7,014 nucleotides of DNA, taken from Desulfobacteraceae bacterium. GTDB taxonomy: Bacteria > Desulfobacterota > DSM-4660 > Desulfatiglandales > HGW-15. The stretch is taken from positions 1-7,014 of the forward strand of contig RPPU01000239.1 in the NCBI GenBank assembly GCA_003819975.1, given 5' to 3'. Below, in pieces: positions 4,809 to 7,014 of the stretch (positions are counted from its first letter, which is position 1; every line of letters starts with the position of its first letter). The translations under genes and the position numbers were made by a program. The notes below the pieces were generated by a model. The model was not told the origin of the DNA and ran no database searches. It saw nothing but the letters and a program-made list of their open reading frames with translations.

Positions 4809-5549
4809 TTGAAATATTCCTTTTTTCTTGATGAAACAGGAGATCATGGTCTTAATTATGTCGATAAAAATTTTCCACTTTTTTTACTTTGCGGTTGTTT
4901 ACTCAGGGAAGACCATCTACGGACCGTGAGCGAAAAAATCCGTATATTTAAACGGAAATTTTTTAGAACCGAAAACGTTATTCTGCATTCACGGGACATC
5001 AGGAAATGTGAAGGTGCGTTTCAGATATTGTTCGATCTTGAGCTAAAAGCGAATTTCTACAATGATTTGAACAGGATACTCAGCGATGGAGAGTTTGTGA
5101 TCATTGGATCAGGCGTCAGAAAGGAAGAGCATATTAAGAGATATGGAAAGGGCGCGCGAGACCCCTATGCCCTGTCCTTATCGTTCATCATTGAGCGACT
5201 TGTCTTTTGTCTGGATCGGACAGATAAAAGCGGAACAGTGGAAATTTTTGTCGAGGAACGGGGGAAAAAAGAAGATTATATGCTGCTTGCGCATTTTAAT
5301 GCCACAATGGACAGGGGCACTTATTATGTATCGCCGGAACGGTTGAAAGGAAAGATCGTTAGATTCGGGTTCCATGCAAAAAAAGAAAACATTATCGGCC
5401 TGCAAATTGCCGATCTGTGCGCCTATCCTTTAGCTCGGAATATAATAAACCCAGGTGAACCTTATGTGCCTTTTCAGGTGATTCAAGATAAGATTTACTG
5501 CAATCAAAAAGGAGAATTTGAAGGATGGGGGCTGAAAATCTTCCCTTAA
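4809..5549 (+). CDS. DUF3800 domain protein, predicted RNase H-like nuclease
   Basis: From TTG 4809 the product has 246 residues and begins MKYSFFLDETGDHGL, as DUF3800 proteins typically begin with the Asp-Glu strand right at the N-terminus. A TTG at 4782 would add nine residues (KNLKKGGA-type) of no domain value. Family signatures are FLDETGD (D8, E9, D12), LHSRDIRK (59-66, R62, D63), the strand VEIFVEERGKKED (E149/E150, R151) and GLQIADLCAYPLAR (D202). The spaced acidic residues D8, E149/E150 and D202 fit an RNase H-like active site, so a nuclease is inferred; the exact substrate is unknown. DUF3800 genes recur near phage-defence and mobile loci. Here it lies directly upstream of cas3 on the same strand, 272 bp apart. 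It is soluble, with no signal peptide or membrane segment. Base composition is AT-richer than mutS and cas3 (hand count about 35% GC over 4861-4920 and 48% over 5101-5160), consistent with separate acquisition. Its stop overlaps the end of a converging small transcript. Confidence 0.88.
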   Translation: MKYSFFLDETGDHGLNYVDKNFPLFLLCGCLLREDHLRTVSEKIRIFKRKFFRTENVILHSRDIRKCEGAFQILFDLELKANFYNDLNRILSDGEFVIIGSGVRKEEHIKRYGKGARDPYALSLSFIIERLVFCLDRTDKSGTVEIFVEERGKKEDYMLLAHFNATMDRGTYYVSPERLKGKIVRFGFHAKKENIIGLQIADLCAYPLARNIINPGEPYVPFQVIQDKIYCNQKGEFEGWGLKIFP

Positions 5550-5583
5550 AAAACAAAGAGTCTTCGTTTCCGAAGACCCCTTG
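5548..5583 (-). terminator. Intrinsic terminator of a minus-strand transcript
   Basis: Read on the minus strand, arms CAAGGGGTCTTCG (5583-5571) and CGAAGACTCTTTG (5566-5554) pair over 13 bp with two G-U wobbles, closed by a GAAA tetraloop. Six T follow at once (5553-5548). On the plus strand the two wobbles become A-C mismatches and no T-run follows, so it works in one direction only. The T-run overlaps the TAA stop of the DUF3800 gene. Confidence 0.78.
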
Positions 5584-5618
5584 CCGACCGGGAGACACCC
5601 CGATCCAATTCCATAATT
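5548..5618 (-). ncRNA. Candidate small RNA, about 71 nt, two hairpins
   Basis: A promoter, a start region and a terminator are all in register on the minus strand, giving a predicted RNA of about 71 nt that begins at an A near 5618. The order is a short single-stranded A/U-rich 5' end, hairpin 1, a two-base GG linker, then the terminator hairpin and U-tail. In hairpin 1, GATCGGG (5605-5599) pairs with CCCGGTC (5592-5586) over 7 bp including one U-G wobble, around a 6-base loop GTGTCT. All three wobbles across the two stems become A-C mismatches in the opposite strand, which argues that selection acts on the minus-strand RNA. It converges on the DUF3800 gene and points away from cas3. It matches no RNA family I recognise. 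A 22-codon reading frame inside it (ATG 5614 to TAA 5546) has no Shine-Dalgarno and would be nearly leaderless, so a peptide product is less likely than an RNA function but not excluded. Expression is not shown. Confidence 0.6.
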
Positions 5619-5624
5619 AAGAAT

Positions 5625-5653
5625 ATAATAGAAAATTTATTACTGGATGTCAA
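5625..5653 (-). promoter_or_regulatory. Sigma70-type promoter for the minus-strand small RNA
   Basis: On the minus strand a perfect -35 TTGACA (5653-5648) is followed by a 17-base AT-rich spacer and a -10 TATTAT (5630-5625; five of six consensus bases). The expected start is an A about 7 bases downstream, near 5618. A near-consensus promoter at ideal spacing that feeds a strong terminator roughly 70 nt away is unlikely to be chance. Confidence 0.65.
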
Positions 5654-5821
5654 GAGAAGAGACCGTGAACGAATTGAAACGGGCTTAATTTTCAATCGTG
5701 CTGGAAAGGTAAGGAGTGCCGGAAAAAAACGCAATTCAGAAGCGTAACCTGTCGAAATGTAGGCATTTTCGTATGAAAGGCGTTAATTTTTGGTCTCTTG
5801 GGCCTATGAAAAGGGTGGTGT

Positions 5822-7014
5822 ATGGGACGCAAAAAATATTATGCCCACAGCAAGGAAGGCTGCCCGCCGGAAGAATGGCAATTGCTGGAAGAGCATCTGG
5901 CATTGGTCGCCAAGAAAGCTTCGGAGTTCGCCGCCAAATTCGATTCAGCCGATTGGGCCTGGAATGCCGGGTGGTTGCATGATGTGGGGAAAGCCGCAGA
6001 TGAATTTCAAGCTTATCTATTGCGGGAAAACGGAATGGACGATTTTGAGTATGACCTAAGCGGCAAAGGCCGGGTGAATCATTCCGGCGCCGGAGCGGCA
6101 TTTGCGGAAGAAAAATTCGGATCCATAATCGGCCTGTCTTTATCTTATATTGCGGCCGGGCATCATGCCGGATTGCCGGATTGGTTTACTTCGGACACCG
6201 GAAATGCCGCCTTAACGGTCAGGTTGGAGGAGGGGAAGCACAATCTCAAGGCTGTCTATGAAACCACCCGGGAATTCACAAACCAAATCAAGCCGCTTCA
6301 TAAACCACCGGCTTTCGTAAAGCCGGCCAATTATCATTTTTGGGTGCGAATGCTTTATTCTTGTCTTGTCGACGCCGATTTCCTCGATACCGAAGCATTC
6401 ATGCAGCCGGAAAAATCCGGACAGCGGGTAGGGTTCCCAAGCTTGCAAGTGATGAAGCGGGTTTTTGACAGCCATATGGAACAGTTTACGGCCACGACTC
6501 CCGTGAATAAGATCCGATTCGAAATACTTGCGGCCTGTCGATCGGCCGCGAAACAATCGCCGGGGTTTTTCTCCTTGACCGTGCCGACCGGCGGAGGCAA
6601 GACCCTTTCAAGCATGGCCTTTGCCTTGGACCATGCTCTGAAATACGGCAAAGACCGCATTATTTATGTCATTCCCTATACGAGCATCATTGAGCAGACC
6701 GCGCAAATTTTTGGCCGCATATTCGGGCCGGAAAACGTGATCGAACATCACAGTAATCTCGATCCGGAAAAAGAGACTCAGCGCTCCCGGCTGGCTTCCG
6801 AGAATTGGGACGCGCCTGTCATCGTCACGACCAATGTTCAATTTTTCGAATCCTTGTTTGCGGCCAAACCAAGCCGTTGCCGCAAGCTGCATCATATTAT
6901 AAACAGCGTGATCATTTTCGATGAAGCCCAGCTTTTACCGCCGGAATGGCTCGATCCCTGCACGGAAGCGATGAACGAACTGGCGCGGCATCTTGGAGCA
7001 ACCATTTTGCTGGC
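5822..7014 (+). CDS. cas3: CRISPR-associated helicase/nuclease Cas3, subtype I-C-like (5' part, cut by window end)
   Basis: The first 397 codons are visible, with no stop. Cas3 is recruited by crRNA-guided Cascade, then unwinds and degrades target DNA with its HD nuclease and SF2 helicase. The N-terminal HD domain (about 1-230) shows YAHS (H9), EEHL (H25), WLHDVGK (H53, D54, K57), NHSGAG (H87), AGHHAGLP (H114, H115) and CLVDADFLDTE (D184). The helicase follows with Walker A TVPTGGGKT (253-261, K260), motif Ia IPYTSIIEQT (284-293), motif Ib VTTNVQFFESLF (335-346) and the DEAQ box (367-370). N-terminal HD order plus the YYAHS..PPEEWQ start and the TTNVQFFESLFA and DEAQLLPPEW strings resemble subtype I-C Cas3, though subtype needs the downstream genes. 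The frame is closed by TGA at 5807-5809, leaving ATG 5822 as the first start; AAGGGTGG (5811-5818) is an acceptable ribosome site. The HD and motif I-II residues are intact, so the visible part looks functional. The C-terminal helicase motifs lie beyond the window. Confidence 0.96.
   Translation, partial: MGRKKYYAHSKEGCPPEEWQLLEEHLALVAKKASEFAAKFDSADWAWNAGWLHDVGKAADEFQAYLLRENGMDDFEYDLSGKGRVNHSGAGAAFAEEKFGSIIGLSLSYIAAGHHAGLPDWFTSDTGNAALTVRLEEGKHNLKAVYETTREFTNQIKPLHKPPAFVKPANYHFWVRMLYSCLVDADFLDTEAFMQPEKSGQRVGFPSLQVMKRVFDSHMEQFTATTPVNKIRFEILAACRSAAKQSPGFFSLTVPTGGGKTLSSMAFALDHALKYGKDRIIYVIPYTSIIEQTAQIFGRIFGPENVIEHHSNLDPEKETQRSRLASENWDAPVIVTTNVQFFESLFAAKPSRCRKLHHIINSVIIFDEAQLLPPEWLDPCTEAMNELARHLGATILL

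Follow-up and report, generated by a model that had tools for sequence, protein, structure and literature searches.

What does a small structured RNA do between a DUF3800 gene and a cas3 gene, and to which of the two genes does it belong? This question was raised by the window, namely the whole contig of 7014 nt analyzed here, which carries a mutS-like gene (read by eye), an AMIN/amidase gene, the DUF3800 gene, and cas3; the nearest named relatives of the amidase are deltaproteobacterial, with approximately 55% identity. The initial annotation had proposed a complete RNA gene on the minus strand at 5548..5653 and, from its position beside defense-type genes, a role in controlling one of them or as a guard element of the CRISPR locus.

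The small-RNA gene and its conservation

The predicted transcript of approximately 71 nt occupies 5548..5618 on the minus strand and consists of a 5' leader, stem 1, a GG(C) linker, a terminator hairpin, and a U tract, its 5' end (5618) being a prediction only. The sigma-70-type promoter TTGACA-17-TATTAT described initially is present upstream at 5625..5653 on the same strand (TTGACA at 5653-5648, TATTAT at 5630-5625), matching the consensus at 11 of 12 positions and constituting the best site in the window; yet the promoter-like sites of the window numbered 8 against 7.4 in shuffles, i.e., showed no excess, and thus this match alone proves nothing. Stem 1 and its loop, GAUCGGGG-UGUC-UCCCGGUC (5586..5605, minus strand), represent the most conserved part of the RNA; the hairpin is the one annotated initially with 7 pairs and a six-base loop, but is counted here as 8 pairs with a four-base loop. 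Similarly, the intrinsic terminator hairpin with its GAAA loop and subsequent U residues (5552..5585, minus strand) was retained from the earlier description, but with 15 pairs instead of 13, the two G of the linker lying within the outer pairs. This site was missing from a simple terminator scan of the window, presumably since two of the six U are paired with the linker GG and only four remain free. The MFE of 5653-5548 was -36.4 versus a shuffled mean of -21.9 (z = -4.9), and none of 200 shuffles was equally stable.

Conservation was assessed on an alignment (A3) of the 24 RNA sequences described below, of which the consensus was derived by RNAalifold. This consensus comprised 21 pairs, 15 of them with at least one kept double change, and the compensatory changes that the initial annotation had asked for were observed in both stems. 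The terminator hairpin displayed many double changes across the relatives. In stem 1, 164 of 168 cells were paired (97.6%; 24 sequences, 7 pairs counted), and three of the four unpaired cells came from a single locus (L139), whose stem, on reading of the alignment, had been shifted one column by the aligner. Three pairs of stem 1 carried double changes, a result matched by 2 of 500 shuffles, and its covariation score was reached by 1 of 500 shuffles and amounted to 2 to 11 times the values for slid versions, whereas additional pair types were not unusually numerous (147 of 500 shuffles). G-U pairs, the basis of the initial strand call, also marked the stems across the alignment: stem 1 had 35 among its 168 cells and the terminator 40 among 207. 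They become A-C mismatches in the complement; four terminator cells favored the opposite strand. Since the G-U pairs of both stems break in the complement, the RNA was assigned to the minus strand. A coding role was rejected, because frames opening with AUG, GUG, or UUG before stem 1 varied in length and sequence and no short open reading frame inside the RNA was kept across the relatives.

In 30 loci, the best promoter match upstream of the RNA averaged 8.93 of 12 positions versus 7.33 in mononucleotide shuffles; it reached 10 or 11 of 12 in 10 loci, whereas in another 10 it was no better than shuffled, being equaled by 54 or more of 200 shuffles. The TTGACA-like promoter upstream of the RNA relatives is a trend, not a rule. 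Between the end of the best -10 hexamer and the core lay 7 to 13 nt in 18 of the 30 loci, the leader in the window being approximately 12 nt.

Pairing of the RNA with DUF3800 genes

The DUF3800 gene (4809..5549, plus strand) starts with TTG and encodes 246 aa, and its stop codon overlaps the RNA 3' end. Its product was assigned to the DUF3800 family PF12686 by Pfam (62.8 bits versus gathering 21, E = 8e-17), and six acidic residues (D8, E9, E129, E149, D156, and D202) were invariant in 38 DUF3800 homologs. A link between DUF3800 and retrons was considered from the PADLOC name DUF3800_VII, which points to type VII retrons and gave one weak match among 28 proteins; the literature searched contained nothing joining the two. 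PADLOC had no model matching the DUF3800 protein of the window, and a structure search by sequence with DUF3800 yielded no convincing solved relative (best E 0.057). As published, DUF3800 has a predicted RNase H fold with catalytic rearrangement, was earlier linked with putative ncRNAs, and lies beside Cas12a2 (PMC10910872), and is found in some VI-F and V-A2 loci (PMC12669027).

The best 120 of 2208 DUF3800 homologs were 63-80% identical and mostly of 246 aa, and the named hosts among these 120 were Omnitrophota, Zixibacteria, WOR-3, Planctomycetota, Syntrophorhabdus, and others. Close homologs thus occur in many phyla, yet a homolog at E <= 1e-60 was present in only 2 of 395 Desulfobacterota genomes, which suggests that the DUF3800 gene is mobile. 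A collapsed multicopy element, suspected from homologs on contigs of approximately 1 kb, was unsupported, the two strong-match genomes having one copy each.

The 3' flank was read in 34 DUF3800 loci (the window, L100-L102, L107, L110-L116, and L118-L139, with L107-L109 counted once and L117 left out). In 24 of them, the same minus-strand RNA, comprising the hairpin, GGC linker, terminator hairpin, and U tract, was present at the stop codon: the window, L100, L101, L107, L110-L112, 15 plasmid loci, and the phages Pkon1 and JBD68. The plasmids were those of Methylobacterium, Methylorubrum, Paraburkholderia, Acinetobacter, Shinella, Bradyrhizobium, Devosia, Novosphingobium, Microvirga, Sinorhizobium, and Brevibacillus, with L128 belonging to Methylorubrum extorquens DM4, and the carriers as a whole were Desulfobacterota-like bacteria, Proteobacteria, Brevibacillus, and phages. 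Their DUF3800 proteins were 28-69% identical to that of the window, the lowest value (28%) being that of Brevibacillus. The RNA faced DUF3800 in all 24 loci, with its end located from approximately 20 bases beyond to approximately 20 bases inside the gene end. In the two strong-match Desulfobacterota genomes, the DNA identity continued past the stop codon into the RNA, and in L100 the 23 core bases were unchanged, although gene and RNA together were 68% identical to the window. The recurrence of this RNA in an identical position after 23 additional DUF3800 homologs, with covariation, is beyond chance and, in conjunction with the fold described above, confirmed that the small-RNA gene proposed initially is real. 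As shown by this pairing, the partner of the RNA is the DUF3800 gene.

The RNA was absent in the other 10 loci (L102, L113-L116, L126, L127, L136, L137, and L138): other hairpins were found in L102 and L113-L116 and an unlike structure in L137, and nothing similar was seen behind DUF3800 in L126, L127, L136, and L138. The other hairpins of L102 and L113-L116 belong to a second conserved RNA on the minus strand, which combines hairpins with a terminator and has a TTGACA-like box upstream; for it, Rfam gave no match at E <= 1 (L113, L114, L116) and none at gathering (L102); the DUF3800 subfamily of these loci ends in GKKFI or a GKKFI-like sequence. In L137, a Rhizobium plasmid locus, the Atu_Ti1 sRNA (RF02506, 85 bits) was located at 1076-1167, approximately 1.3 kb before DUF3800.

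Other search routes gave less. A scan of genome contigs with the amidase alone gave no match, the DNA similarity search gave only three chance-level matches in plasmids and none in phages, and in viral contigs neither the exact terminator pattern nor the DUF3800 protein alone matched; the DUF3800 alignment as query led to five loci there. One viral contig with the core pattern (L106) was rejected as an RNA copy, since its pattern occurs by chance within a long reading frame and scores 17 bits.

DUF3800-associated RNA motifs were reportedly described by Weinberg et al. in 2017. The present RNA resembles them as a structured RNA adjoining a DUF3800 gene, and its conserved, covarying structure in 24 of 34 loci is that of this broad kind. 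Rfam includes DUF3800-I (RF02969) and DUF3800-IX (RF02968) (PMC11701678), and none of its DUF3800 families was found at gathering on the window, L100, L101, L107, L110, L111, or L112. On the window, Rfam returned three sub-threshold matches (E 0.44 to 8.9) and no DUF3800 family up to E 10, and 16 additional loci, of which 12 carry this RNA, likewise gave no DUF3800 family when searched by E-value. The view that the RNA is not an obvious member of a known family thus held in the Rfam search, where no family reached its gathering score. The literature searched contained nothing on this RNA family; the RNA is a further DUF3800-associated RNA outside the Rfam 15 families and may equal a published motif outside Rfam. 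The Bradyrhizobium sRNA BjrC68 (RF02353), a conceivable relative, has a similar two-hairpin layout and gave sub-threshold matches on the plasmid RNAs of L121-L123 (20-21 bits, E 0.34-0.65; gathering score 39), but differs in its longer hairpin loop (16 in the family consensus).

Genomic surroundings and the mod-res slot

A covariance model (R1) built from the 24 RNA sources scored the window RNA, itself one of these sources, at 69.1 bits. On 58 loci, R1 recovered the 24 sources and duplicates and nothing else above 17.4 bits, and on 80 control loci (1.15 Mb) nothing exceeded 15.2 bits. Three partly overlapping genome draws of 395, 257, and 63 genomes were searched. In the draw of 395, matches at E <= 0.01 occurred in 70 genomes, seven of them at 40.8-65.5 bits and the rest forming a tail that begins at 36 bits. 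The three draws together yielded a true core in 12 genomes (L140-L146, L149, L179, L180, L182, and L183) at 40.8-65.9 bits, save for L149 (33.8 bits), which was kept because its stem 1 is complete. Four candidates of 30-36 bits (L147, L148, L150, and L152) were rejected as copies, their alignments sharing little but the terminator, and two of 33-34 bits (L181 and L184) were set aside after sequence reading; the lower-scoring matches resemble generic terminators, as far as read. Because L151 and L153-L169 were judged by the DUF3800 check only, some diverged true copies may be missed.

Eight of the 12 genome copies were located beside DUF3800 (six intact), one beside pieces of it (L180), and three without it (L145, L146, and L149). 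The two interrupted genes, those of L140 (= L101) and L183, are disrupted near the start; that of L101 has two in-frame stops there, and its close relative P0180 is intact. A profile search for DUF3800 elsewhere in the assemblies of the three solitary RNAs gave none in G194, one of another subfamily (L102) in G154, and one weak match in G381.

Six of the 12 genome copies lay inside restriction-modification operons (L171, L172, L173, L176, L177, and L185), a raw proportion, uncorrected for background insertion. The arrangements were hsdR-hsdM-DUF3800-RNA-hsdS in L177, mod-DUF3800-RNA-res in L173, L176, and L185, hsdM..hsdS-RNA-hsdR in L171, and hsdM-hsdS-ORF-RNA-AbiEi-AbiD-..-hsdR in L172 (AbiEi and AbiD by PADLOC). 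The ORF between hsdS and the solitary RNA of L172 (7293-8027) encodes 245 aa without a Pfam family and has a weak PADLOC match to 'Tin' (E 0.00076). In L101 (900-2200; L177), the hsdM 3' end is doubled, with one copy before DUF3800 and one between the RNA and hsdS (117 nt, 82% identical), as if the cassette had entered with a copied flank. The solitary RNA of L145 is flanked by an SLFN_AlbA_2 gene and an MqsA/SocA-like gene, and no defense neighbors were recognized around L141, L144, L180, L182, and L183 (L180 and L183 without a family search of their surroundings). Outside the draws, the orders AbiEi_4 (sub-cutoff)-DUF3800-RNA-hsdR and MmeI-FRG-DUF3800-RNA-helicase were found in L112 and L111, respectively. 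Phage copies were mostly outside restriction operons, the cassette lying between portal and terminase genes in the phage contig L107 and two genes behind a CI-like repressor in Pkon1; for most plasmid copies, no adjacent restriction gene was seen in the annotation.

The site between mod and res was compared among relatives of the L173 res gene, of which 25 loci were fetched and 19 examined, the other six being partial or distant. In 16 of the 18 other loci, res was preceded by a mod gene related to that of L173 (all but L196 and L205), and DUF3800-RNA was present between mod and res only in L173 (= L189) among the 19. The site was closed, with mod ending at most 20 bases from res, in seven loci (L197, L198, L200, L201, L202, L204, and L206), whereas genes for an MNT nucleotidyltransferase and a HepT ribonuclease filled it in three (L191, L194, and L195) and a PIN-domain gene (L192), a DUF559 gene (L190), and a DUF1828 gene (L199) in one each; the slot content of L193, L196, L203, L205, and L208 has no assignment among the 19. 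This type III-like restriction family has a cargo slot in its mod-res gap. DUF3800-RNA occupies, in this one family of operons, the place of known toxin-antitoxin modules, although non-toxin-like genes use the slot too. For the guard element suggested initially, a tie to the CRISPR locus is unsupported, but the idea can be recast as a cassette in several kinds of defense operon, once in a slot used by toxin-antitoxin genes.

Proposed role of the RNA and rival explanations

The reading we favor, with a probability of roughly 0.5, is that an RNase H-fold nuclease is held in check by its own small RNA, forming a toxin-antitoxin-like module in defense operons with a PrrC-like placement. It is based on the finding of a nuclease with a dedicated RNA whose place within restriction operons is taken by HepT or PIN modules in relatives; this slot exchange with MNT-HepT and PIN genes would support the toxin-antitoxin status indirectly, and toxicity, binding, and trigger are what we infer for the antitoxin mechanism. 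The two-gene cassette would consist of the DUF3800 nuclease on the plus strand and an RNA of approximately 70 nt that is transcribed from its own promoter and ends at the stop codon of the nuclease. The free nuclease would be harmful, and the RNA would silence it by binding through the conserved stem 1 and might possibly also pair with complementary read-through nuclease mRNA. Once a phage stops transcription or disables the host defense operon, the RNA would be lost and the nuclease would kill or arrest the cell. That stem 1 retains its sequence where the proteins are 30% identical points to a protein as the partner that recognizes it. Counting against this reading are the three genomes with the RNA but without an adjacent DUF3800, which can be explained as an antitoxin left behind and equally well by an independent function; further points against it are the interruption of 2 of 8 DUF3800 genes, the 6 of 12 genome copies (and most plasmid and phage copies) outside restriction operons, the 10 of 34 DUF3800 loci without this RNA, the 10 of 30 loci whose promoter match does not exceed shuffles, and the lack of a PADLOC model fitting the window protein. 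A broader proposal, which we put forward only tentatively, is that DUF3800-RNA represents a widespread RNA-antitoxin system of a new type, in which a single-copy convergent RNA acts on an RNase H-fold nuclease, and that it is an interchangeable cargo of HepT/PIN slots from which restriction and CRISPR operons are guarded, with the solitary hsd RNAs protecting their hosts against incoming cassettes.

The PrrC nuclease of EcoprrI is linked to a defense operon and silenced by its type I restriction enzyme until a phage peptide neutralizes that enzyme and turns PrrC on (PMC2610378), a placement resembling that proposed here. PrrC differs in being a tRNase with ABC ATPase motifs that is silenced by the restriction enzyme, whereas DUF3800 has another fold and travels with an RNA. 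To our knowledge, no small RNA is part of the PrrC system. MNT-HepT (HEPN-MNT) fills the mod-res slot in operons homologous to that of DUF3800-RNA, but has a protein antitoxin, and the proteins are unrelated. Type III toxin-antitoxin systems of the ToxIN-like kind have a tandem-repeat RNA that precedes the toxin gene on the same strand, whereas the present RNA is single-copy, downstream, and on the opposite strand in 24 loci. DUF3800 has been reported beside ncRNAs and CRISPR effectors, without a tested role there in the accessible parts of these reports (PMC10910872, PMC12669027), and the RNA-antitoxin reading, if true, would explain DUF3800 genes inside restriction and CRISPR operons. The role of so compact a cassette is open to direct testing, given its defined RNA, the alignment of 24 relatives, the empty sites, and the toxin-antitoxin genes that share its slot.

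The main rival, which we consider rather unlikely, is a cis-antisense regulator, in which convergent transcription and the complementary RNA lower the expression of DUF3800 or the next gene, such as a restriction subunit or cas3, and the structure serves stability only, as likened to 3'-overlap type I pairs or antisense control of restriction genes. In type I toxin-antitoxin systems, the RNA is antisense to the mRNA of a small peptide toxin, and bsrG/SR4 is such a pair with a convergent 3' overlap. The present RNA, likewise convergent at the 3' end of the putative toxin gene with its own promoter and terminator, faces DUF3800 and ends near the gene end in 24 loci, and no U-rich plus-strand terminator was seen behind the window DUF3800, so that the complement would be expected in read-through mRNA; several loci have a helicase-nuclease subunit gene (res, hsdR, cas3) next, and solitary RNA copies lie within hsd operons. 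However, although the RNA is antisense to the 3' flank, the protein is an enzyme of 246 aa instead of a small peptide, and perfect antisense needs neither kept sequence nor covariation across 30% identical proteins, whereas stem 1 and the GG linker are kept and the RNA covaries over great distance. Antisense pairing with the 5' regions was rejected, since 25 of 200 shuffles for DUF3800 and 93 of 200 for cas3 were as strong.

Quite improbable in our estimation is an RNA cofactor or guide that DUF3800 would bind and require for activity, as an OMEGA-like ribonucleoprotein. Such a role would suit an RNase H-fold nuclease with a dedicated adjacent RNA and a patchy, wide distribution, but no variable segment of guide length was found: the leader is short (approximately 12 nt in the window), a mere 7 to 13 nt separate the -10 hexamer from the core in 18 of 30 loci, and the RNA closes with a terminator at its 3' end, so that, on predicted ends only, the RNA is not of the OMEGA kind with a flank-derived guide. 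In addition, the RNA occurs without the protein. Still less probable is a mere terminator that ends transcription of a convergent unit or of DUF3800, with promoter and stem 1 incidental. The terminator is indeed strong and the promoter-like site count in the window is at chance level; nevertheless, conservation is highest in stem 1 rather than in the terminator, stem 1 covaries, TTGACA-like boxes recur upstream, and a plus-strand terminator would require U on the other side.

The cas3 gene of a type I-C CRISPR-Cas system (5822..7014, plus strand; PADLOC Cas3c, E 1.3e-129) is cut by the contig end, and in the window the DUF3800-RNA cassette is directly upstream of it. R1 gave no match to the RNA in 14 loci that carry related cas3 genes of type I-C, 12 of which were informative (11 with 1500 bases upstream of the match and L087 with 452) and two uninformative (L093 with 155 bases; L096 with 138, where the match begins inside the gene). 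The link of the RNA to cas3 was thus rejected, as 12 of 12 related cas3 genes with enough flank lacked it upstream, and cas3 is a neighbor of the RNA, not its partner. The part of the initial proposal that tied the RNA to a defense-type gene holds for DUF3800, but its tie to cas3 or the CRISPR locus is unsupported, because the RNA keeps company with DUF3800 in plasmids, phages, and restriction loci. CreTA is a CRISPR-repeat-like RNA beside cas genes that acts through Cascade; the present RNA, missing from these 12 cas3 loci and found beside other genes, is not of this kind as judged on cas linkage. A CRISPR-specific element, i.e., a CreA-like guard RNA or a cas regulator, is suggested by the position upstream of cas3 and by a nearby repeat-like 8-mer outside the RNA, but is scarcely credible, being largely refuted by the distribution of the RNA, which none of the 12 informative cas3 loci carries and which follows DUF3800 where no cas gene is annotated or recognized. 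The 8-mer, ATTGAAAC at 5673-5680, lies between the RNA promoter and cas3 and has its sole copy in the window there; it matches the 3'-terminal sequence of many CRISPR repeats of type I-C and could be a chance occurrence or a degenerate repeat.
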